A DNA stretch of 64,000 bases from Bacteroidetes bacterium GWF2_38_335 (GTDB taxonomy: Bacteria; Bacteroidota; Bacteroidia; Bacteroidales; GWF2-38-335), in the NCBI GenBank assembly GCA_001769535.1, contig MEOH01000026.1, positions 62,001-126,000 on the forward strand, written 5' to 3'. The notes under the pieces are model-generated. The model was not told where the DNA came from, made no database searches, and saw only the letters and a program-made list of their open reading frames with translations. The number at the start of each line of letters is the position of its first letter. Position 1 is the stretch's first letter. This document shows, in pieces, positions 42,947 to 57,826 of the stretch. A program made the position numbers and the translations under genes.

Positions 42947-43492
42947 TTAAGAATACTTTTTTACTACTTCCATGCCTTTTGTAATGGCCTGTTCATTAAT
43001 TGGAATCAGGTTATGGTGACGGGTGGGGAGAGATTTTTTCAGCCCTTTGATCACGTTGTCCATTTTTACAATAGGTTTTAATTTCAGGAAAGCACCCAGT
43101 ACAATCATGTTGAAAGTTTTTCCTGATTCAGTTTTTGCAGATTCTTCAGCAGCTTCGACCTGGTAAATCTGAATATCTTTACGTGTTGGATGTTTTGTGA
43201 TACCGTTTGGATCATATAATAACAATCCGCCTGGTTTTACTGATTTTTCAAATTTATCCATCGACTGCTGGTTCAGAATAATTGCTGTGTCGAATTCATT
43301 GATAACAGGAGAGGAGATTCTTTCGTCGCTCAATATTACTGTAACATTGGCTGTTCCGCCTCTCATTTCTGGTCCGTACGATGGCATCCAGCTAACTTCC
43401 TGATCCTGCATGATTCCTGAATATGCAAGGATTTTTCCCATGGAAAGTACACCTTGTCCACCAAATCCGGCTATGATAATTTCTTCAGTCAT
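42947..43492 (-). CDS. korC: 2-oxoacid:ferredoxin oxidoreductase, gamma subunit
   Basis: Gamma-type subunit of an oxygen-sensitive thiamine-dependent 2-oxoacid oxidoreductase. The N-terminus EEIIIAGFGGQGVLSMGKILAYSGIMQ carries the family GGQGV motif, and SWMPSYGPEMRGGTANVTVILSD follows. The length (181) is normal. It is last in a four-gene operon (ferredoxin, alpha, beta, gamma), 37 bases after the beta subunit. The complex decarboxylates a 2-oxoacid with CoA and reduces ferredoxin, or runs in reverse. The exact substrate (2-oxoglutarate or branched-chain 2-oxoacid) cannot be separated by eye. Confidence 0.9.
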   Translation of the reverse strand: MTEEIIIAGFGGQGVLSMGKILAYSGIMQDQEVSWMPSYGPEMRGGTANVTVILSDERISSPVINEFDTAIILNQQSMDKFEKSVKPGGLLLYDPNGITKHPTRKDIQIYQVEAAEESAKTESGKTFNMIVLGAFLKLKPIVKMDNVIKGLKKSLPTRHHNLIPINEQAITKGMEVVKKYS

Positions 43493-43529
43493 ATCTCTAA
43501 AATTTAGATTTTCAAATTAATATTACGGT

Positions 43530-44306
43530 TTATTGAGGAACTTTAATGTCTCCAAGTGGATAGAATGGGAACATATTTTCTTCCATCCATTTGTTTGCCT
43601 GAACCGGAGTCATTTTCCATCCCGAGTTGCAGTTCGAAACGATTTCGACAAAACAGGTACCCAGTTTACGGTTTAATTGATAGTCGAATGCGTTTTTCAG
43701 AGCTTTTTTAGCTTTTCTTACTGCAGCAGGAGTATGAACAGATTGTCTTGTTACATAATAAGCACCGGGTAATGTTGCTATTAATTCGGTGATTTTTAAA
43801 GGATTGCCCATAATACTTGTATCCCTTCCGTAAGGACAGGTTGATGCTTTCATGTTTGGCAAGGTGGTTGGAGCCATCTGTCCGCCGGTCATTCCATAAA
43901 TACCGTTATTAATGAAAACAATAAGGAAATTTTCACCGCGGTTAATGGAATGAATTGTTTCGGCAGTACCAATCGCTGCAAGGTCACCATCACCCTGATA
44001 AGTAAATACAAAATGATTTGGGTTTAATCTTTTAATTGCAGTGGCAAGGGCAGGGGCACGGCCGTGAGCTGCCTGCTGAACATCAATGTTCATGAATTCA
44101 TAAGCCAATACAGAACAACCAACAGGTGCAACACCAATGGTTTTATCCTGATAACCCATTTCATCAATCACTTCCATAAGAATTCTGTGGGCAGTTCCGT
44201 GGCCACATCCGGGGCAGTATGACATTGCCTTATCGGTAAGAAGAGAGGTTTTTTTATAAACCAGATTTTCTTCTTTTGCTATTTGATCAAATGTTAATTC
44301 AGCCAT
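43530..44306 (-). CDS. korB: 2-oxoacid:ferredoxin oxidoreductase, beta subunit
   Basis: Thiamine-diphosphate-binding subunit, 258 residues. YCPGCGHGTAHR near the N-terminus supplies a Cys pair. The ThDP motif GDGDLAAIGTAETIHSINRGENFLIVFINNGIYGMTGGQ (GDG to NN, about residues 91-130) is complete. ACPYG-like NMKASTCPYGRDTSIMG follows. It lies 3 bases after the alpha subunit stop. The pattern of four short subunits in this order is the KorDABC/VorDABC type. Confidence 0.93.
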   Translation of the reverse strand: MAELTFDQIAKEENLVYKKTSLLTDKAMSYCPGCGHGTAHRILMEVIDEMGYQDKTIGVAPVGCSVLAYEFMNIDVQQAAHGRAPALATAIKRLNPNHFVFTYQGDGDLAAIGTAETIHSINRGENFLIVFINNGIYGMTGGQMAPTTLPNMKASTCPYGRDTSIMGNPLKITELIATLPGAYYVTRQSVHTPAAVRKAKKALKNAFDYQLNRKLGTCFVEIVSNCNSGWKMTPVQANKWMEENMFPFYPLGDIKVPQ

Positions 44307-44309
44307 AAA

Positions 44310-45392
44310 CTATCCTCCAATAATTTTTTGTTCTAATGCTTGTACTACTTCACTAGGGGTTGGGATGATACCACCCATTCTTCCGAAATGTTCCACTTTT
44401 GTTCTGAACTGAGTTGCCAGTCTGATGTCTTCAACCATCTGACCTGCATTCATTTCAACAGAAAGCATGCCTTTTACTTTATCAGCATATTTTCTGAGGA
44501 TTTTATTTGGGAACGGACTTAAAGTGATCGGGCGAACCAAACCCACTTTAATACCTTTTGCACGAGCCACATCCATTGCTTTCTGGCAAATTCTGGAAGC
44601 CGACCCAAAAGCCACGAATAAGTATTCAGCATCATCGCAATTCAACTCTTCGCACATCACATCTTCTTCCATTTTTTTGTATTTTTTCTGAAGATGTATA
44701 TTGTGCTCTTCCTGAACACTTGATTCAAGATTCAGAGAGGTAATAATATTTCTTTCTCTGTTTGCTGTTTTACCTGTAGTAGCCCATGGGGAGTTTTTAA
44801 TAACCTCTTCCTGTGTCCATCTTGGTTTTTCATCAGATAATTCCACTTTTTCCATCATTTGACCGATGATACCATCAGCTAAAACTAGACAAGGAGTGCG
44901 GTATTTGAATGAAAGAGCAAAGCCTTTTTCAACAAAATCATACATTTCCTGAACCGAAGCAGGAGCAAGTACAACCAGTTTATAATCGCCATGTCCGCCA
45001 CCTTTAACAGACTGATTATAGTCAGATTGTGAAGGTTGAATGGTACCAAGACCTGGACCTCCTCTGACAACATTTAAAATCAGACAGGGCAATTCGGCAC
45101 CTGCCATATAGGAAATGCCTTCCTGTTTCAGGCTAATGCCCGGACTGGAAGAAGATGTCATTACTTTTTTACCACAAGCAGCACCGCCATATACCATATT
45201 TATTGCAGCCACTTCACTTTCGGCCTGTAAAACAACCATACCTGTACGTTCGTAAGGTTTCTGGGCCATCAAATATTCCAATACTTCGGATTGCGGAGTA
45301 ATAGGATACCCGAAATAGCCATCGGCTCCGGCACGAATAGCAGCTTCTGCTATCGCTTCGTTTCCTTTCATTAATCTTAATTCTTTCGCCAT
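44310..45392 (-). CDS. korA: 2-oxoacid:ferredoxin oxidoreductase, alpha subunit
   Basis: The largest subunit (360 residues), carrying the pyrimidine-binding domain and transketolase-like C-terminal domain. Seen: LMKGNEAIAEAAIRAGADGYFGYPITPQSEVLEYL, AESEVAAINMVYGGAACGKKVMTSSSSPGISLKQEGISYMAGAELP and VVRGGPGLGTIQPSQSDYNQ. The C-terminal part has ALRPITLSPFPNK-type residues (VGLVRPITLSPFPNKILRKYADKV) and EMNAGQMVEDIRLA. Similar Bacteroidetes proteins are often annotated as VorB (branched-chain 2-oxoacid); the symbol here is therefore provisional. Confidence 0.93.
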   Translation of the reverse strand: MAKELRLMKGNEAIAEAAIRAGADGYFGYPITPQSEVLEYLMAQKPYERTGMVVLQAESEVAAINMVYGGAACGKKVMTSSSSPGISLKQEGISYMAGAELPCLILNVVRGGPGLGTIQPSQSDYNQSVKGGGHGDYKLVVLAPASVQEMYDFVEKGFALSFKYRTPCLVLADGIIGQMMEKVELSDEKPRWTQEEVIKNSPWATTGKTANRERNIITSLNLESSVQEEHNIHLQKKYKKMEEDVMCEELNCDDAEYLFVAFGSASRICQKAMDVARAKGIKVGLVRPITLSPFPNKILRKYADKVKGMLSVEMNAGQMVEDIRLATQFRTKVEHFGRMGGIIPTPSEVVQALEQKIIGG

Positions 45393-47391: not shown

Positions 47392-48375
47392 TTAAATTTT
47401 TACATCAGCCCCAATTCCTTTCTCCCTTGCCATGTCATAAATCAGTTTAGCTGTGGCTACATCCTGTATGGCCAGTCCGTTTGATTTGAAAACTGTTATT
47501 TCATCGTTGTTTGTACGTCCTTGTTTTTTACCTGTAATAAGGTCTCCAAGTTCTGCATAAAAATGCTCTTTGGTAACGGCTCCTTCGCTGACCGGAATCA
47601 TGATATCACCTGCTTCGTTGAAGCATGCTTCGCGTGAGTCACCAACAAATTTGGATCTTTTTACGGTTTCGGTATCGAGTTCGCGGGCGCCGGGCGAGTG
47701 ACTGCCTATATTATTAATATGCGTGCCGGGTTTTAGTTTTTTTCCATCCCAAAGTGGTGTGGCCGATGAAGTGGCTGTACAAATAATATCTGCCTGAAGC
47801 AAATCATCAGAGTGTTGTGCAATTTCAATTTTTATGCCGTGCATTTCGCTCATCAATTTTACGAAATTGTTACATGCATCAGGAATAAGGTCATAAACCA
47901 GAACTTTTTCAACTTCAATGGTTTCTTTCATAGCCCACAGCTGCATTTGAGCCTGAACGCCGGTTCCGTAAATACCAATAACCTGTTTTCCTTTTCTGGC
48001 AAGATATTTATTGGCTACACCGCTGGCAGCACCTGTTCTTACGGCTGTAAGATAGCCACCATCCATTATGCAGATTACATCTCCGGTTGAAGGATCCTGT
48101 AACAGCACTTTTCCAATGGTAGTAGGCATATTGAACTTAGCAGGATTGTCTTTATAAACTGTAACTACCTTGCAGGCCAATGCATTTAATCCTTTCAGAT
48201 ACGCAGGCATGTAGAGGGCCAGACCGGGCAATCCATCCTTGGGTGAAATATTATTTCTTAACGGCAATGCAGCTGTTCCGTTTGATAATTCTGCAAAAGC
48301 ACTCTCGACTGCCTTTATACAGTCTTTCATGGTTAAAACCGATTTTACATCGTCGCGGGTTAATAGTAGTGGCAT
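47392..48375 (-). CDS. Ornithine cyclodeaminase/mu-crystallin family protein
   Basis: NAD(P)-dependent enzyme of the OCD/alanine dehydrogenase family, 327 residues. Seen: PLPLRNNI-type substrate region (ALPLRNNISPKDGLPGLALYMPAYL), ACKVVTVYKDNP with the catalytic-Lys context, GYLTAVRTGAASGVANKYLARKG, the Rossmann motif IGIYGTGVQAQMQLWAM, and NNIGSHSPGARELD. Members make proline from ornithine, reduce cyclic imines, or act on alanine or other amino acids, so the substrate is open. An AGGAGG ribosome site lies before the ATG. It neighbours the double TPL-like protein and an aminotransferase, suggesting amino-acid catabolism. Confidence 0.87.
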   Translation of the reverse strand: MPLLLTRDDVKSVLTMKDCIKAVESAFAELSNGTAALPLRNNISPKDGLPGLALYMPAYLKGLNALACKVVTVYKDNPAKFNMPTTIGKVLLQDPSTGDVICIMDGGYLTAVRTGAASGVANKYLARKGKQVIGIYGTGVQAQMQLWAMKETIEVEKVLVYDLIPDACNNFVKLMSEMHGIKIEIAQHSDDLLQADIICTATSSATPLWDGKKLKPGTHINNIGSHSPGARELDTETVKRSKFVGDSREACFNEAGDIMIPVSEGAVTKEHFYAELGDLITGKKQGRTNNDEITVFKSNGLAIQDVATAKLIYDMAREKGIGADVKI

Positions 48376-48507: not shown

Positions 48508-51147
48508 TTATTTCACTTCTTCAAATCTTCCCTGGAAGAATCTGAGGTTTTTGGGTTCGTAAGTAAATTTCAAACCTTTGATCTGATCACGTTTTTTGTA
48601 CAGTTTGATGATTGACTCGGCAACCAAATCCATATGAGCGTTTGTATAAACTCTTCTTGGAATGGTCAAACGTACAAGTTCCAGTGATGGCCTGTAGTTC
48701 TGTCCGTTTGGCTGACGGCCTTTAGAAACGTTTCCTCTTTCCATGGCTCTTACGCCTGAATCAACATACAATGCGGTGGCTAGTGCCTGAGCGGGATACT
48801 GATCCTGATCAATGTGTGGTAAGAATCTTTTTGCATCTAAGAAAACTGCATGTGATCCAACTGGCTCAACAATGGGAACTCCTGCTTCGAGTAGTCTCTT
48901 TCCAAGATACTGTGTTTGCTCAACGCGGTTTTTAATGTAGCGGTAATCTACCATCTCAATAACTCCCTGGGCATGAACTGCAAGGTCGCCTGCTGTCATG
49001 CCGCCATTGGTAATTGAACCTTCATATTTTCTGAGCATTTCCAATGCATTGTAATAGAATTCCTCATCGTCTTTAATAGCAAGAAATCCACCGATGTTTA
49101 CGAGGTAATCTTTTTTACTGGAAACGGTACAGCCATGACCGTAGCTGAACATTTCATGAAGAATGTCTTTAATTGAAGCGTGATGATATCTTTCATCATG
49201 TTTTTTAATCATATAAGCATTTTCTACTGCGCGGGTAGCATCCCACATTAAATAAATGCCCTGTGATTCGCAATATTCATAAATTTCTTTGGCATTATCC
49301 ATGTGAACGGGCTCTCCGCCTGCAAGGTTAACGCTGAATTCAAAGCTGATGTATGGAATATTTTTTGCGCCATGCTGATCAACAAGTTTTTTCAGTTTGT
49401 TAAGATCGATATTTCCTTTCCATCTGAATTGATTTGTCGGATCGTGTGCTTCGTCACAAATGACATCTGCAAATGTTCCGCCTGCCATTTCCTGATGAAG
49501 TTTTGTTGTGGTAAAATACATGTTTCCAGGAACGACTCCGCCCGAAATAAGACACTGTGACATGATGTGCTCAGCTGCTCTTCCTTGGTGTGTCGGAATT
49601 ATGTATTTATAACCTGTGATTTCCTGTAATGTTTCAACAAAATCAAAGTAATTCTCACTTGTAGCTTGTGTTTCAACACTTTGCAGATATGCGGCCCACT
49701 GTGTTGTAGTTTGTGCAGTGGTTCCTGAGTCGGTTAAAAAATCGATGGAAACGTGCTTTGACTGAAGAAGGAATGTATTAAATCCTGATTCGTGAGCATG
49801 CTCAAGTCTTTCTGCTTCTGTTGTTTCTCCAATGTATTCGATTTGCTGAATGGTAAATGGCTCTGATTTAAAGAAAAACTCTTCCATAACAGGTCTGTTC
49901 CATTTAAACATGGCATCATCATTCCATTCGGGAGCATTTTCAAGAAATAGTCCGGCAATTTTATCCCTCATGGCATAAACCTGATTGATAACAGTTGCAA
50001 TTTCTGCAAGTTGTTCATTGGTAAGTGCCATTCTTGGGATCTGAACGGGGAGGATGGAGGAGTCGTATCTTCCTTCGAGGAAGCATCTGATACCTGATTT
50101 TAAATAAATTGCTGCTGCTAAAGTGTGAGCTGGACTTTCACATTTTGGTAAAAATTCATCGGCTTTGATATACAAGCCATCTGCTCCATAGTAAAATGGA
50201 ATATTTTTTAACTGCGAAGCAAATTTTTCAGTCTGGAACAAAATCCAGGCTGCTTGTTTTTCATAAACCATTTCGGCTAAACCACGGGCAAACACTTCCA
50301 TTGTTCTTCCGGCCATTCCTCCGTATGTGTGCAGACCTTCATAAACAACCACCTCGTTCATATATTTGTCGTACAGTTCGTAAATGTTGGTTGAAATAAA
50401 TCCGCCGGTATTAGATCTTGGATCCTGTCCGCCATCCATTACAAAAATATCTGAATTGGAGCCTATTTCGTAAACAATTTCCTTAAGGGTTTTGTTGCTG
50501 TAACCGGATTCATTTTTTCTGATATAATCAGCAGTTGCAATAATGTAAGAACCATTAACAACCAAAACAGTATTGTTATTTTTAGCAATTTTTGAAGCTT
50601 CCTTAATATTGGCTAAAGAAACGGGTTTAAAGCCGTCTGCATAAAGTTCAATGTAAACGTAAGGAATGTTTGTTTTTCCTTTTAATTCTTTATCAAGAGC
50701 GGCAGTATCAATGTTTCCGGGGAAAGTTTTATCATTAACAGCTAAAATTTCCATGTTGGCATCTTTGTCGTGAATGAGTTCAACCGGTTTCAAAGAATTT
50801 CCATAAATTACATCACCTTCTTTAACCATGGTTGCGGTAATGAGTTTGTGAGAACCTCTCAGATTGTGAGTCGGACAAACATTTGTATGACTGAACAATC
50901 CTTTGATTACGTCACACATGTGTTCAAAATTACGGCTTCCTGCGTAGGTTTCATCACCGGTGAACAAACCGGCAAACTGTTCCTGGCTAACTGCTGAAGT
51001 ACCCTGACTGGTCATGTCGAAGGTAACCATGTATGAAGGAATATGGAAAGTATTGTAATTGGCTGCCATCAAAGCATCAATTCTATCCTGCATTGAAGTG
51101 TATTCAACGTTTCTTATTGTTTTTAATTTATAAGGTTCTGCTATCAT
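48508..51147 (-). CDS. Tandem tyrosine phenol-lyase/tryptophanase-like fusion, one composite site
   Basis: An 879-residue PLP fold-type I protein made of two beta-eliminating lyase domains (about 1-415 and 421-879); known TPL and TnaA are about 450-470. The C-terminal half is TPL-like: PLP lysine Lys679 (VSSKKDYLVNIGGF), Asp636/Arg639 (WDATR), Thr546, Arg804 (MERG, TPL Arg381), Arg826 and Phe870 (LRFF). But the positions of TPL Tyr71, Met288 and Tyr291 are Gln494, Ser711 and Asn714. The N-terminal half keeps Tyr68 (GDETYAGS), Leu272 and Tyr275 there, but has Gln241 for the PLP lysine, Asn198/Tyr201 for Asp214/Arg217, Pro121 for Thr124, Glu358 for Arg381 and Pro367 for Arg404. In TPL, Tyr71, Met288 and Tyr291 come from the neighbouring subunit, so one composite active site is predicted. 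The likely reaction is beta-elimination of L-tyrosine or a relative to pyruvate and ammonia. The product is unproven. Confidence 0.88.
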   Translation of the reverse strand: MIAEPYKLKTIRNVEYTSMQDRIDALMAANYNTFHIPSYMVTFDMTSQGTSAVSQEQFAGLFTGDETYAGSRNFEHMCDVIKGLFSHTNVCPTHNLRGSHKLITATMVKEGDVIYGNSLKPVELIHDKDANMEILAVNDKTFPGNIDTAALDKELKGKTNIPYVYIELYADGFKPVSLANIKEASKIAKNNNTVLVVNGSYIIATADYIRKNESGYSNKTLKEIVYEIGSNSDIFVMDGGQDPRSNTGGFISTNIYELYDKYMNEVVVYEGLHTYGGMAGRTMEVFARGLAEMVYEKQAAWILFQTEKFASQLKNIPFYYGADGLYIKADEFLPKCESPAHTLAAAIYLKSGIRCFLEGRYDSSILPVQIPRMALTNEQLAEIATVINQVYAMRDKIAGLFLENAPEWNDDAMFKWNRPVMEEFFFKSEPFTIQQIEYIGETTEAERLEHAHESGFNTFLLQSKHVSIDFLTDSGTTAQTTTQWAAYLQSVETQATSENYFDFVETLQEITGYKYIIPTHQGRAAEHIMSQCLISGGVVPGNMYFTTTKLHQEMAGGTFADVICDEAHDPTNQFRWKGNIDLNKLKKLVDQHGAKNIPYISFEFSVNLAGGEPVHMDNAKEIYEYCESQGIYLMWDATRAVENAYMIKKHDERYHHASIKDILHEMFSYGHGCTVSSKKDYLVNIGGFLAIKDDEEFYYNALEMLRKYEGSITNGGMTAGDLAVHAQGVIEMVDYRYIKNRVEQTQYLGKRLLEAGVPIVEPVGSHAVFLDAKRFLPHIDQDQYPAQALATALYVDSGVRAMERGNVSKGRQPNGQNYRPSLELVRLTIPRRVYTNAHMDLVAESIIKLYKKRDQIKGLKFTYEPKNLRFFQGRFEEVK

Positions 51148-51451: not shown

Positions 51452-52789
51452 CTAATTACCATAATGTTCGTTAAATTTCTTCAATCTTGCTTCAAGATCA
51501 GGAAATTGTGATCTGTTAACCAATGAAACACAAGCCCTTAATCCCTCGTTTCTTTCACTGCGGGTGGTTGTCAGCGTTATAGCAGAAATTCCGTAAAACA
51601 TCAGTCTTTCAAGAAGTTCATCGCCACTCATTCCGGGATAAGCAATGGTAAAATAAAATCCATCAGCAATAGGTTCACCCAGATCTTTGTCATACACAAT
51701 ATTAAATCCGTTATCGGTGAAGAGTTTCTTCATAATTTCGGCTTTTTTGCCGTATTCTATTACATCGTCTTTATAATTGTATGTTCCGTCATTTACGGCT
51801 TTCAGGATGGCACACAAGCCGTACTGACCTGAGTTTGAAGCGCCCGCTGTAAGCGCATAAATGGTTCCGTAAATCATTGAGTAGCCAAAGAGATCGGTAG
51901 GATAGAACCGTTTTAGTGCAGGTCTTTTCAGTTTTTGCAATTTATTTGACATCACCATCATTCCGAGGCGTGGACCGGGATAGCTGAACATTTTTGAGCC
52001 GGAGATGAGATGAATCACATTTTCGGTGTATTTTGCCACAGATGGTTGGTATGGTTCAACTCCTGGTTTTGAGTAATCTTTTCTGAAGTCCATTCCAAAA
52101 TAGGCAAGGTCTTCAAGAATAATCACATCATATTTATTAGCCATTTCACCGATAATTTTCAGTTCCATATCAGTCATGCAAACCCATGATGGATTATTCG
52201 GGTTAGAGAAAAGAATGGAATGAACATGCCCTTTTGAAAGAATTGATTCGAGTTTATCTCTGAGTTTTTCACCTCTATAATCATACACATCAAAAGATTC
52301 TACTTTTTTACCCAGCACATCCAGCTGCAATTTGTGAACAGGAAAGCCCGGATCAATAAATAGTGTAGTATCCCTGTCATCACAACTGTTATTTATGGTG
52401 ATGAAAGCTGCCATGCTTCCCTGCAAACTTCCCACTGTTGGTACACATCCGTAAGGATCTACCTCGTGGTTCAGGAATAATTTTACAAAACGGGCAATTT
52501 CATTTTTAAGTTCAGGGAGGCCTTCAAGCATCGGGTATTTCGAATTCACACCATTTTTTATGGCTTCTATTTCAGCATCAACACCAATTTTTGGGGTTGG
52601 TAAACCGGGGATACCCATTTCCATGCGCACATATTTCATTCCGGTTTTTCCTTCGATGATGTTGATCATCCGAACAACCTCGCGAATGCTGGCTCGTCCG
52701 ACATTTGGAATGCCGCTTTCCCTGATAACAGTTTCCACTGCGTTAAAATCAACCGGGGTTTCCTTTGTTTTAAATATTAAATTGCTCAT
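51452..52789 (-). CDS. Class I/II aminotransferase
   Basis: PLP-dependent fold-type I aminotransferase. The frame is open to a TTG at 52816, but that codon lies in a TATTTTTG promoter element, so the ATG at 52789 (MSNLIFKTKETPVDF) is preferred, giving 445 residues. Seen: VGSLQGSMAAFI (phosphate-binding), SILFSNPNNPSWVCMTDMELK, VIILEDLAYFGMDF (Asp and Tyr for the cofactor ring), and the PLP lysine in LISGSKMFSYPGPRLGMMV; a C-terminal Arg lies in TRSERNEGLRACVSL. Substrate is unknown; the neighbourhood suggests an amino-acid degradation step feeding 2-oxoacids to the ferredoxin oxidoreductase encoded nearby. Confidence 0.87.
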   Translation of the reverse strand: MSNLIFKTKETPVDFNAVETVIRESGIPNVGRASIREVVRMINIIEGKTGMKYVRMEMGIPGLPTPKIGVDAEIEAIKNGVNSKYPMLEGLPELKNEIARFVKLFLNHEVDPYGCVPTVGSLQGSMAAFITINNSCDDRDTTLFIDPGFPVHKLQLDVLGKKVESFDVYDYRGEKLRDKLESILSKGHVHSILFSNPNNPSWVCMTDMELKIIGEMANKYDVIILEDLAYFGMDFRKDYSKPGVEPYQPSVAKYTENVIHLISGSKMFSYPGPRLGMMVMSNKLQKLKRPALKRFYPTDLFGYSMIYGTIYALTAGASNSGQYGLCAILKAVNDGTYNYKDDVIEYGKKAEIMKKLFTDNGFNIVYDKDLGEPIADGFYFTIAYPGMSGDELLERLMFYGISAITLTTTRSERNEGLRACVSLVNRSQFPDLEARLKKFNEHYGN

Positions 52790-52813
52790 ATCTATATTTT
52801 CTGGTTTATCTTT

Positions 52814-52821
52814 CAAAAATA
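52814..52821 (-). promoter_or_regulatory. Putative -7 promoter element TATTTTTG
   Basis: Exact TAnnTTTG match on the reverse strand, 24 bases before the aminotransferase ATG at 52789. It overlaps the upstream TTG and so supports the shorter protein. Confidence 0.4.
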
Positions 52822-52975: not shown

Positions 52976-55900
52976 ATGAATATAGAAAGAGCCATTTTGG
53001 TATTTTTTGGTATGCTGATATTTTTGTCAGGCAAAGCTCAAATAAAAAGTGACTGGGCTTTTAATTTAAATGATATGAACCCTCAGGGAGGGCAAATAGC
53101 AGGAACCTGTGTGAAAAAAGATGCATCCGGAAATATATATGTTACCGGATATTTTAATGCAACTGCTGATTTTGACCCGGGAATCGGAACAGCAAACATG
53201 ACCTCTAAAGGAGGCAGCGATATTTTTATTGCCAAGTATGATGCTTTGGGAAATTACGTTTTTTCTAAATGCTTTGGGTCTTTTTCTGATGACTGGGGAA
53301 CATCCATTGCCCTTGATGTATCTGGAAATATTTATTTAACCGGTTTTTTTCTTTCTACAGCAGATTTTGATCCGGGACCTGATGTTGAAAATCTTGCTTC
53401 AGCAGGGAATAAGGATATTTTTGTAGCAAAGTATGATCCTTCAGGTAACTATATTTTCGCAAAAAGCATTGGCGGATCAAGCGATGACTGGTCATATTCC
53501 ATTGCCGTTGATGGCACCGGTAATGCTTATATTACAGGATATTTTATAAATACTGTTGATTTTGATGCGGGAGCCGGTGTTGCATCCCTTACTTCGGCAG
53601 GCGACAGGGATATTTACATTGCAAAATATGATGGATCGGGTAATTTTGTTTCTGCAATAAATGTTGGCGGAACAGGTGCTGATCAGGCAAATACAGTTAC
53701 CCTGGATGCCGCAGGCAATGTTTTTATTACAGGATTTTTTTATGGCACGGCAGATTTTGATCCCGGAACAGGCAGTGTGAACCTGACTGCAACCGGAATG
53801 GGTGATGTATTTGTGGCTAAATACGATGGCTCGCTTAATTACCTTACCTCTTTTAAATTGGGCGGAGTTGCCGTTGAAACCGGAACATCCATTGAAATTG
53901 ACGCTTCAGATAATATTCTTGTAACAGGTACCTACATGGGTACAGTGGATTTTGATCCGGGTGCCGGAACAGTCAACCGAACCTCTTTTGGCGGCTCCGA
54001 TGTATTTGTGGCAAAATACAATTCATCCGGAAATTATATTTATGCCATCAGCATGGGTGGAACCTCCAATGAAGGATCTTATTCAATTGCAGTTGATGTT
54101 GCAGGAAACGCATATATTACAGGAACAATGCAGGGTACGTGCGATTTTGATCCCGGACTTGGTATTGCCCCATTGGTGTCGGCTGGTGGTGATGATATTT
54201 TTCTGGCAAAATATAATCCTTCAGGAAATTACATTTATGCAAACAGATTTGGAAGATCTGCTACCGATTATGGCTACTCCGTTGATGCTGACGATTCCGG
54301 CAATGCCTATATTACCGGATATTTTACAGGAGGAACTGTGGATTTTGACCCGGGGGCAGGAACAGCAAACCTGGTATCTCCGGCATCTCTGCAAAATGCT
54401 TTTATCGGAAAATATGACCCGTCAGGAAATTACCTGATGGCATTTAGTCTGGGTGGCTATCCAAACACAACTGTGAATCAGACAAACAGTAAGGTTGTAT
54501 CAGATAACGCGGGGAACATGATTTTAGCAGGGAGTTTTGCCGGCACGGTTGATTTTGATCCCGGACCCGGAAATGCATACCTTACATCAGCTGGACAAAA
54601 TGATATTTATCTGGCAAAATATGATCCTTCGGGAAATTACATTTTCGCTTTCAGATTGGGCAGTACTTTTAATGATGATGCATACTCGGTTTTTGTTGAT
54701 GGGGATGGTGAAATTTATATTACTGGTTATTTTGACGGGACTTTTGATTTTGATCCGGGAACCGGAACAGCCAATTTGACTGGAACAGGTGATGTTTATT
54801 TTGCAAAATACAATCCATCAGGTGTTTATATCTTTGCCAAATCTATTAGTGGAACTTCAACAGATAACGGTAATTCAATTTTTATTGACGGTTCTGAGAA
54901 TATATATCTTACAGGATATTTTCAGGGAACTGCCGACTTTGATCCTGATGCCGGAACAGCCAATCTGGTTTCAGCAGGAAGCTCGGATGTTTTTATTGCC
55001 AAATACGATCCTGCCGGGGCATATATTTATGCGAAGGGCTTTGGTGGAACCGGCGACGACAGGGGCCAGGCACTAACACTGGATCAATCGGGAAATATTT
55101 TGCTTACAGGTTATTTTAATGGTACGGCTGATTTTGATCCAGGTACGGGCAATGCTTTTATGGTTTCAGCCGGATCTCAGGATATCTTTATTGCTAAATA
55201 TAGTAATTCGGGTGATTATATAAATGCCGGAAGGGTGGGAGGCAGCTCAACAGATTTCAGCTATTCCTTGTCTTACGACGGATTATCTTCATTTTATATC
55301 TGTGGCAACTTTATGGGAACCAGCGACTTTGATCCGGGAACCGGCACATATAATTTAGTTTCAAGTGCAGGAACCTCCGATTTCTTCCTTGCAAAATATG
55401 ATAATTCTTTCAATTTAGTTTTTGCAAACAGCTTTGGAGGTACATCATCTGAGTACAGTTATTCATCTTCAATTGATGCCTCCGGGGATATTTATCTGAC
55501 AGGTTTTTTCGGTGGTGTGGTTGATTTTGATCCGGGCACGGTAACCACCAATCTTACTTCATCGGGTTCAGCAGATATTTTTCTTGCAAAATACAATGCT
55601 TCGGGAAATCTGATCTATGCAAAAAATTTTGGTAGCACATCCTCTGAATCAGGTAATTCTGTTCATGCAGGTATTGATAGTGTTGTTTTTCTTACCGGAT
55701 ATTTTCAGGCACCTGCCGATTTTGATCCCAGCTTAAATGTGGATGAACTTAGTTCTCTGAATGGCAATGACATCTTTGCTGCTAAATATTTACCTGCCTA
55801 TCCTGAAATTGCTGTATCAGGAAACAGCGAATTTATTTTTGATGACGATGCAACGCCTTCATTAACAGATGATACTGATTTTGGTAATTCAATTATCGGA

Positions 55901-57826
55901 TCTCCTGTTTCGCATACTTTTGTGATTGAAAACAATGGAGAAGCTGATCTTCTTTTAAATGGAATACCTGCTGTAACAGTAACAGGAACCGGATTTGCAC
56001 TCAGCACAGACGCTCCTTCAATAATTGCAACAGGAACAGCTGTTTCCTTTGAGGTAACTTTTACTCCGGATAATTGTGGCTCTTTTTCCGGTAACATTAG
56101 CATTGCTAATAATGATCCGAACGAAAATCCGTTTAATTTTTCAATCACCGGAAATTGCATTGACAATATTGCTCCAATACCCGATGTTGCCAGTCTGCCC
56201 GATTTAACCGGAGAATGTTCTGTTTCTGTTTCTTCCATTCCAACAGCAACCGATGCTTGTGCAGGTGTTATAACCGGGACTACCAGCGATCCGCTTACAT
56301 ATTCATCACAAGGCACATACCAGATTAACTGGCGTTTTGAAGATGATTTTGGAAATTTCACAGAACAAACTCAAAATATTATTATTAATGATGTAACTCC
56401 ACCGGTTCCGGATATTGCTACTTTACCCGATCTTACCGATGAATGTATGGTTGTGGTGTCTGGTTATCCAACAGCCACCGATGCCTGCTTTGGAACAATT
56501 ACACCCTTTTACTCTGGTCCGGCAGTCATCACCACCCAGGGAACCACTCAAATTACCTGGCAATATTTTGACGGTATGGGCAATGTTACCTATCAAACGC
56601 AAAATGTTGTTGTCGACGATGTTACTCCTCCGGTGCCCGATGTAACAACCTTACCGGATATTACAGCAGATTGTTCGGTCACTATCTCTGAATTTCCTTC
56701 CGCAACCGATGCCTGTTCTTCTTATACCGAAACAACCACAGATGATCCATTATATTACAATGCAGAAGGCATCTATATAATTACCTGGAAATACAACGAC
56801 GGCAATGGCAATTTTACTTATCAAACACAAAATGTGATTGTGGAAGATTCTGAAATGCCTGTCCCGGCACTTTCTTCATTGCCTGATCTTACAGGAGATT
56901 GCTCTGTTTCTGTGGCCTATTTTCCTACAGCAACCGATAATTGTTCCGGTGATTTGTTTGCCACCACCTCCGATCCTTTGGATTATCCTAATCAGGGAAC
57001 TTACCTCATAACATGGACTTTTGATGATGGAAATGGAAATATCCTCACCCAAACTCAAAATGTTATTGTAGATGACTTGACTGCTCCATTGCCCAATAAT
57101 GATATGCTGCCTGATGTTATTGGCTCCTGCGATGCTTCAGTTGAAGTTCCATCTGCATGGGATGAATGTTCCGGTACCATTTACGCTACCACTACCGATC
57201 CTTTGTTTTATGATGAACAAGGCACCTATATTGTAACATGGACCTACCTTGATGACAATGGAAATTCATCAATTCAAACTCAAAACATCACAGTAGAGGA
57301 TATTATTAATCCTGAAATGAACTGTGCCAACGATATTGTAATTGATCTTGCCGAAGGTGAAACTTCATATACGGTTGTTGCTGAAGAACTGGATCCGGTC
57401 TATACCTGGGATAATTGTGAAATTTCATCTGTCACAAATAATTACAGCTTGAGTGCTTCACTTGCCGGTTCAGTATTTCCAATTGGTTCATACGAAATTA
57501 TCTGGACTGTGTCAGATATAGCGGGAAATGAATCTGTTTGCTTTGCTCAGGTTATCGTCAATCCTTACGTTGGCGTTTCCGATGTATATAATGAATTGGT
57601 CAAAGTGTATCCAAATCCAACCAAAGACTTGATTGTCATTGAAACAACAGGTGAAGATTGTATTTCAAAATATGAACTGAATGATGTGTCAGGAAAAATT
57701 TTATTAACTGATTTTATTTCAGAATCACTGACAAGAATTGATCTTTTGGACTTTACTAACGGTGTATATTTCCTGAAAATTTATTCTGATAAAGGAGTCA
57801 TAGTACATAAAGTTGTTAAAAACTAA
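52976..57826 (+). CDS. Giant SBBP-repeat/HYR-like surface protein, T9SS cargo
   Basis: A 1616-residue secreted protein. A signal peptide (about 1-21, ending SGKAQ) is followed by 14 SBBP-type repeats of about 60-70 residues (about 45-940). Each has the pattern DxxGNxYxTGYFxGTxDFDPGxGxxNLxSxGxxDIFxAKYDxSGNYIxAxxxGG, predicted to form beta-propellers. Residues about 945-1060 form a choice-of-anchor-D/ASH-like domain (HTFVIENNGEADLLL). About 1065-1450 are five HYR-like modules of about 75 residues (ATDACSG, QGTYxITWxxDDGNGN, TQNVIVDD). One divergent HYR module and a type A sorting domain (VKVYPNPTKDLIVIETTG...GVYFLKIYSDKGVIVHKVVKN) close the protein. Probably an adhesin or surface-layer component. 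It has its own good promoter. Confidence 0.88.
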   Translation: MNIERAILVFFGMLIFLSGKAQIKSDWAFNLNDMNPQGGQIAGTCVKKDASGNIYVTGYFNATADFDPGIGTANMTSKGGSDIFIAKYDALGNYVFSKCFGSFSDDWGTSIALDVSGNIYLTGFFLSTADFDPGPDVENLASAGNKDIFVAKYDPSGNYIFAKSIGGSSDDWSYSIAVDGTGNAYITGYFINTVDFDAGAGVASLTSAGDRDIYIAKYDGSGNFVSAINVGGTGADQANTVTLDAAGNVFITGFFYGTADFDPGTGSVNLTATGMGDVFVAKYDGSLNYLTSFKLGGVAVETGTSIEIDASDNILVTGTYMGTVDFDPGAGTVNRTSFGGSDVFVAKYNSSGNYIYAISMGGTSNEGSYSIAVDVAGNAYITGTMQGTCDFDPGLGIAPLVSAGGDDIFLAKYNPSGNYIYANRFGRSATDYGYSVDADDSGNAYITGYFTGGTVDFDPGAGTANLVSPASLQNAFIGKYDPSGNYLMAFSLGGYPNTTVNQTNSKVVSDNAGNMILAGSFAGTVDFDPGPGNAYLTSAGQNDIYLAKYDPSGNYIFAFRLGSTFNDDAYSVFVDGDGEIYITGYFDGTFDFDPGTGTANLTGTGDVYFAKYNPSGVYIFAKSISGTSTDNGNSIFIDGSENIYLTGYFQGTADFDPDAGTANLVSAGSSDVFIAKYDPAGAYIYAKGFGGTGDDRGQALTLDQSGNILLTGYFNGTADFDPGTGNAFMVSAGSQDIFIAKYSNSGDYINAGRVGGSSTDFSYSLSYDGLSSFYICGNFMGTSDFDPGTGTYNLVSSAGTSDFFLAKYDNSFNLVFANSFGGTSSEYSYSSSIDASGDIYLTGFFGGVVDFDPGTVTTNLTSSGSADIFLAKYNASGNLIYAKNFGSTSSESGNSVHAGIDSVVFLTGYFQAPADFDPSLNVDELSSLNGNDIFAAKYLPAYPEIAVSGNSEFIFDDDATPSLTDDTDFGNSIIGSPVSHTFVIENNGEADLLLNGIPAVTVTGTGFALSTDAPSIIATGTAVSFEVTFTPDNCGSFSGNISIANNDPNENPFNFSITGNCIDNIAPIPDVASLPDLTGECSVSVSSIPTATDACAGVITGTTSDPLTYSSQGTYQINWRFEDDFGNFTEQTQNIIINDVTPPVPDIATLPDLTDECMVVVSGYPTATDACFGTITPFYSGPAVITTQGTTQITWQYFDGMGNVTYQTQNVVVDDVTPPVPDVTTLPDITADCSVTISEFPSATDACSSYTETTTDDPLYYNAEGIYIITWKYNDGNGNFTYQTQNVIVEDSEMPVPALSSLPDLTGDCSVSVAYFPTATDNCSGDLFATTSDPLDYPNQGTYLITWTFDDGNGNILTQTQNVIVDDLTAPLPNNDMLPDVIGSCDASVEVPSAWDECSGTIYATTTDPLFYDEQGTYIVTWTYLDDNGNSSIQTQNITVEDIINPEMNCANDIVIDLAEGETSYTVVAEELDPVYTWDNCEISSVTNNYSLSASLAGSVFPIGSYEIIWTVSDIAGNESVCFAQVIVNPYVGVSDVYNELVKVYPNPTKDLIVIETTGEDCISKYELNDVSGKILLTDFISESLTRIDLLDFTNGVYFLKIYSDKGVIVHKVVKN

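Follow-up and report, generated by a model that had tools for sequence, protein, structure and literature searches.

We consider a gene in a 64,000-nucleotide stretch of DNA from Bacteroidetes bacterium GWF2_38_335 (contig MEOH01000026.1, positions 62,001 to 126,000; called the window below) whose product is very probably a tyrosine phenol-lyase (TPL) built as a covalent pseudo-heterodimer, in which two complementary lyase domains of one chain would form a single composite active site that splits L-tyrosine. The gene is the minus-strand frame at 48508-51147, which is open throughout from ATG to stop over 879 codons. The Pfam family PF01212 matches its product in two stretches, and so does the NCBIfam model for TPL (TIGR02618), for which the whole 879-residue protein passes the cutoff (841.2 bits vs 720.7). 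The open frame and these double matches bear out a first reading of this DNA, made from its letters alone (the sequence-only reading), which placed two lyase domains in one chain. The tryptophanase models stay below their cutoffs (TIGR02617, 588 of 826 bits; NF053783, 631 of 750).

The two domains are unequal in their resemblance to known lyases. The C-terminal domain (residues 426-879, minus strand 48511-49872) is predicted to bind pyridoxal 5'-phosphate (PLP), covers positions 2-450 of the 450 in TIGR02618, and is 52-54% identical to the TPLs of solved structure. Where tryptophanase has Asp124, Ile381 and His448, this half carries Thr, Arg and Phe (residue numbers without further remark are those of Citrobacter freundii TPL). 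The N-terminal pseudo-lyase domain (about residues 1-398, minus strand 49954-51147) alone matches the solved TPLs with an E-value of about 1e-55 and is 31-39% identical to single TPLs; it lacks the loop near TPL 385-400 as well as Phe448 and Phe449, and at the place of the TPL C-terminal tail it closes in a linker (about residues 399-425, limits set by eye, minus strand 49873-49953).

The active-site residues of TPL are divided between the two halves of the window protein. The PLP lysine is absent from the N half, which has Gln241 in place of Lys257 (codon 50425-50427, minus strand, as are all codons below), and present in the C half as Lys679 (49111-49113). The C half also keeps Asp636, Arg639, Thr546, Arg804, Arg826, Phe870 and Phe871 (TPL Asp214, Arg217, Thr124, Arg381, Arg404, Phe448 and Phe449), and it does not hold Tyr71 and Tyr291 within the same domain: Gln494 (49666-49668) stands for Tyr71, and in the segment from Ser711 to Asn714 (49006-49017) Met288 and Tyr291 are lost. 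The N half has these partners as Tyr68 (50944-50946), Leu272 (50332-50334) and Tyr275 (50323-50325), and shows Asn198, Tyr201, Pro121, Glu358 and Pro367 where the sequence-only reading had placed the counterparts of Asp214, Arg217, Thr124, Arg381 and Arg404. Alignment to C. freundii TPL confirms the letters named in that reading and their counterparts, with one reservation: because the N half is missing the loop near TPL 385-400, it is less certain that Glu358 and Pro367 correspond to Arg381 and Arg404.

Does this division hold in other proteins of the same build? The fused set comprises 25 distinct proteins, that of the window included, and two from other orders of the class, 27 in all, six identical duplicates having been removed before the residues were tabulated. 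Contig ends cut four of the 27 C halves, so that 23 cover the positions of Lys257, Met288 and Tyr291. All 27 N halves have Gln for Lys257 and carry Tyr71, Tyr291 and Leu at position 288. All 27 C halves have Gln or Pro for Tyr71 and retain Thr124, while Met288 and Tyr291 are lost in each of the 23 that cover them (Asn, Thr or Ser at position 291) and Lys257, Arg381, Arg404, Phe448 and Phe449 are retained in the same 23. One contig-end piece (G076), probably the missing end of one fused C half, also has the Ser and Asn. Single TPLs and tryptophanases, in comparison, retain Tyr71, Lys257 and Tyr291 in 35 of 35 rows (36 were aligned, and one in a wrong frame, L080_S, was dropped); Leu at position 288 occurs in 18 of these 35. 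The losses in the two halves thus co-occur, and in none of the 27 proteins, as far as the sequences reach, is the full set present in either half.

The reason to read this pattern as a shared site lies in the catalytic dimer of the superfamily. In E. coli tryptophanase, Tyr74 and Tyr307 reach across to the neighbouring subunit and bond to its PLP phosphate (PMC2770544); these residues lie in the motifs GDEAYSG and EGFPTYGG of the E. coli chain and align with Tyr71 and Tyr291 of TPL (by way of a close relative, L103). For TPL itself, Tyr-71 is given as the proton donor to the ring carbon and Arg-381 and Thr-124 as the residues that hold the substrate hydroxyl (PMC9262865). With the trans role of positions 71 and 291 borrowed from tryptophanase, the trans residues are kept only in the domain that has no PLP lysine. 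A pair of two C halves has no proton donor and a pair of two N halves has no PLP lysine; therefore only the pair of an N and a C half is complete.

From this we infer how the enzyme would work: that its halves dock, that each chain carries one PLP and that the substrate is L-tyrosine. The N and C halves would pair like the catalytic dimer of TPL, either inside one chain or across chains. The C half would bind PLP at Lys679 and hold the carboxylate and phenol groups of the substrate by Arg826, Thr546, Arg804, Phe870 and Phe871. The N half, its own PLP lysine lost, would lend the partner residues Tyr68, Tyr275 and Leu272, with Tyr68 acting as the general acid on the ring carbon and Tyr275 as the phosphate contact. 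The single working site per chain would convert L-tyrosine to phenol, pyruvate and ammonia.

The division extends beyond the named residues. We take as fixed the 197 sites that are at least 95% identical in 24 single TPLs, and profile the losses in 20 of the 25 fused proteins (the five truncated ones are left out). Sixty-three fixed sites are lost only in the N half, nine only in the C half and five in both, and 31 are kept in both. The nine C-only losses are Lys11, Tyr71, Gly73, Val282, Val283, Tyr291, Gly296, Arg297 and Glu300; the segments 66-76 and 280-302, with 23 of the 197 fixed sites, contain eight of these nine and one of the 63 N-only losses. The conservation of the N half peaks in the windows TPL 65-79, 275-289 and 290-304 (0.88, 0.89 and 0.90), the corresponding values being 0.64, 0.71 and 0.79 for the C half and 0.89, 0.79 and 0.91 for single TPLs. 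Comparison over the 27 proteins, with the C-only losses clustered near the trans tyrosines, hence supports well the single composite active site from complementary halves that had been proposed. Tyr71, Tyr291 and Lys257 follow the cis/trans division throughout, but not all cis residues are gone from every N half: Asp214 and Arg217 persist in some.

This last point is one of several that weigh against the composite site as drawn here. Of 25 N halves, 6 retain Asp214 and 7 retain Arg217, so the losses seen as Asn198 and Tyr201 in the window protein are not fixed. Met288 presumably acts in trans as well, but no text supporting this role was found. Gly52, Glu69 and Asn262, which we take to be the potassium site, are kept in both halves wherever covered, and from this the second interface would seem not to be wholly abandoned. 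The clustering of losses in the two segments gives a hypergeometric p of 8e-8, a value that is too small because the limits of the segments were set post hoc, and that is descriptive only. AlphaFold2 does not dock the halves with confidence: alignments of 6 and 12 rows, both shallow, give mean predicted local distance difference test (pLDDT) scores of 63.8 and 72.6 and predicted template modelling (pTM) scores of 0.47 and 0.57. Finally, for glycine decarboxylase it has been argued, with a low confidence score, that a domain carrying Gln at the lysine position may retain PLP in non-covalent form (PMC7259800), so that the Gln by itself does not imply a single PLP per chain.

Within each half the predictions fare better, and both AlphaFold2 runs have confident core segments in each. 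In the 12-row model the regions with pLDDT below 50 include residues 1-70, 269-277, 402-478 and 488-496, and the interface segments are of low confidence. The predicted C half superposes on C. freundii TPL (2ycn_A) with a Z score of 52.6 and a root-mean-square deviation of 1.6 over 415 residues; the matches shown by the structure aligner span residues 456-878, which is the C half. Glycine decarboxylase is absent among the best 50 matches of either structure search, a result that excludes nothing.

Which halves would meet in the composite site is a separate matter. TPL is a tetramer with catalytic and non-catalytic dimer interfaces. In a domain-swapped form of the composite site, the N half would pair with the C half of another chain and the site would lie between chains; two such chains together would resemble the TPL tetramer but have two sites and not four. 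The linker is only about 27 residues long and no docking of the halves is predicted, which speaks for such a swap, as does the presence of a catalytic and a non-catalytic dimer interface in the tryptophanase tetramer (PMC2770544). We hold the swap to be possible, if somewhat doubtful. A further candidate, the pairing of the fused lyase with a tryptophanase of the same genome, was set aside: three of the 25 fused genomes show no tryptophanase or other single lyase, though those are drafts (84-99% completeness).

An altogether different proposal dispenses with the N half in catalysis. C halves could pair with each other and act on a substrate whose leaving group departs easily enough to make Tyr71 dispensable (e.g., S-alkyl-cysteine), and the N half would be regulatory or structural. 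Two points favour it: replacements of Tyr71 and Arg381 act differently by substrate (PMC3870968), and the vacated pocket of the N half carries fixed replacements. This proposal, however, leaves without explanation the retention in the N half of Tyr71, Tyr291 and their surroundings, which are its most conserved parts, and in the C half of the phenol-binding Thr124 and Arg381, kept wherever covered. We therefore consider it improbable.

The N half might also be a decaying duplicate with no function. It does evolve faster, with a tree length of 7.8 vs 3.2 for the C halves of the same 20 proteins (2.4 times), and it has lost the 63 fixed TPL positions given above. Against decay, no internal stop occurs in any of the 27 proteins (some of which end at contig ends), Tyr71 and Tyr291 are invariant, and the ratio of nonsynonymous to synonymous substitution rates (dN/dS) in the 15 closest pairs is 0.09-0.18 for the N halves, next to 0.04-0.27 for the C halves. 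By these ratios both halves are maintained under purifying selection, and simple decay is very improbable. An error of assembly or frame that joined two adjacent lyase genes would be easiest to credit in fragmented genomes, and most of the source assemblies are fragmented; but the 27 proteins are distinct, the 25 genomes spread over 17 families and include one assembled as a single contig of 4.1 Mb, and two complete adjacent genes would each retain the catalytic set. We regard the artefact as refuted, with next to no chance of being right.

The composite site leaves a second, vacated pocket in the N half. The sequence-only reading had this second site free to evolve, a view that we find unsupported: among sixteen fixed replacements in the N half, the pocket carries Q98N, T124P, T216S, S254D and K257Q, each present in 19 or all of the 20 N halves compared, beside positions 214, 217 and 381, which do vary. 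Because of these fixed replacements the pocket is not simply free to drift, and it may serve as a structural plug or have become a new site. Since Asn98, Pro124, Ser216, Asp254 and Gln257 are conserved and none of them is the TPL residue, the pocket could even be a conserved second site with a ligand of its own, e.g., a regulator of the working site; we think this unlikely. If it were true, the fusion would be an obligately asymmetric lyase under allosteric control.

Among known enzymes, the nearest in family is the TPL homotetramer (TIGR02618; C. freundii 2ez1, Erwinia herbicola 1c7g). The C half resembles it over the full length and keeps the residues that bind PLP, the carboxylate and the phenol group, and most of the N half can still be recognised as TPL; the fusion differs in having two copies per chain, each without the part of the site that the other retains. 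Tryptophanase (TnaA) is of the same superfamily and follows the same dimer logic, whereas it has Asp124, Ile381 and His448 in place of the TPL set and is not fused. The closest precedent for the arrangement is the glycine decarboxylase P-protein (GcvP/GLDC), a single chain of PLP fold type I described as having a lysine-less N half with Gln and an active C half (PMC7259800). Both it and the fusion have Gln at the PLP lysine position of the N half, but the family and the reaction are different, and the resemblance is likely one of convergence rather than descent. Glycine decarboxylase also exists in paired-gene forms (GcvPA/GcvPB), a form not seen here for the TPL fusion. Serine palmitoyltransferase, of a different family, likewise has one subunit with the PLP lysine and one without (LCB2 and LCB1 taken together) and a composite site at their interface; the two are usually encoded by separate genes, and a viral single-chain fusion of them exists. 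In trypanosomatids, a dead paralogue is reportedly needed for the activity of the live one in AdoMetDC/prozyme and in deoxyhypusine synthase (PMC5201418, PMC3663545), though there the chains are separate and the folds unrelated.

The kind of system is thus already known from glycine decarboxylase. The sequence-only reading knew of no described fused TPL, and none turned up among the titles and abstract openings listed in searches of the open-licence literature. The fusion offers a natural experiment in which a symmetric enzyme with shared sites would have become an obligate asymmetric one, each tied copy losing the part that the other supplies, and in which the cis/trans division can be read residue by residue. 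That the dead N half of glycine decarboxylase shows the same Lys-to-Gln loss suggests that evolution can take this path repeatedly. TPL is used in the production of L-3,4-dihydroxyphenylalanine (L-DOPA), and a single chain with one site would be a scaffold for altering the cis and trans residues independently.

We turn to the origin of the two halves. In a tree with 16 of the 25 fused proteins, the N halves form one clade and the C halves another (support 100/100 each). The C clade is placed beside tryptophanase and the Met288-type TPLs, and the N clade sits on a long branch among the Leu288-type TPLs, a placement that carries a long-branch warning; the N-half motif EGLHTYGG is common to two Leu288-type single TPLs aligned beside it. 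A forced clade of N and C halves is not rejected (approximately unbiased test, p-AU 0.46), and for this reason a tandem duplication of one gene is not distinguishable from the joining of two different lyases. When the N and the C halves of 20 fused proteins are placed in separate trees, 11 of 17 splits agree, which allows a single fusion event without proving it. In other Bacteroidota (L069, L079, L082) a Leu288-type single TPL adjoins a tryptophanase-type gene, and adjacent pairs of lyase matches also occur at G805:C11, G977:C6 and G1107:C48.

The fusion is found, among the matches listed, in 22 genomes besides that of the window out of 393 drawn from the order and in two further ones out of 395 drawn from the class; 395 drawn from the phylum add no other fused genome among the matches listed. 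Named records that carry it are Bacteroidales or Bacteroidetes metagenome-assembled genomes. The listed matches below the fused group are frames of single-lyase length (at most 544 residues), save G983 and the second halves of fusions already counted; single matches inside long frames are those of G961 and G983 (544 and 630 residues). A further single lyase is held by 22 of the 25 fused genomes, every one of tryptophanase type (in G286 it is a fragment, assigned by Asp124 only), and no separate TPL is found in the 25, which are mostly drafts. Because their single lyases are all of tryptophanase type, the fusion seems to fill the TPL slot of its host genomes.

The N half is not found in viral contigs, and alignments of tryptophanases and of Leu288-type TPLs find nothing there; a scan of plasmids with the N half gives, among the matches listed, only ones of about 30% identity. 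One 126 kb contig classed as viral (L098, IMGVR_UViG_3300006339_000005) carries a TPL-like gene with 49% identity to the C half; this may be host sequence.

The genes around the fusion belong to a few recurring families. Upstream on the minus strand of the window lies a class I/II aminotransferase of 454 residues (51452-52816; PF00155), found near the fusion in 10 distinct loci, its own included, with a frame resembling it also in L202. It scores 67 bits to PF00155 and at most 76 bits to any NCBIfam model, and so falls in no named NCBIfam subfamily. Downstream, on the same strand, is a 327-residue protein of the ornithine cyclodeaminase/mu-crystallin family (47392-48375; PF02423; 5 distinct loci, own included). 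It is alanine-dehydrogenase-like and reaches 295 bits with TIGR02371, under the cutoff of 409. The three subunits of a 2-oxoacid:ferredoxin oxidoreductase follow at 42947-45392, again on the minus strand, and neighbour the fusion in 8 distinct loci, that of the window among them; the 360-residue subunit scores 542 bits vs a cutoff of 399 with NF005507 (VorB). In one relative (L146:2008-14531) an acyl-CoA synthetase of the ADP-forming type, the aminotransferase, the fused lyase, the cyclodeaminase-family protein and the three-subunit oxidoreductase stand on one strand, a cluster that looks like an amino-acid fermentation unit.

This gene context suggests, by inference, tyrosine fermentation. 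It does not fix the substrate, because 10 of the 23 fusion loci from numbered genomes (L149, L150, L152 and L161-L167) are without matches to these neighbours (acyl-CoA synthetase, aminotransferase, cyclodeaminase-family protein and oxidoreductase); several of them end at contig ends. In two relatives a regulator of the Lrp/AsnC type stands upstream of the fused lyase in divergent orientation (L163:2587-3057 and L201:7679-8155). Farther along the window, at 52976-57826, is a gene for a protein of 1616 residues with many FDPG...DIF(I/L)AKYD repeats and a C-terminal tail that we take to be typical of secreted Bacteroidota proteins.

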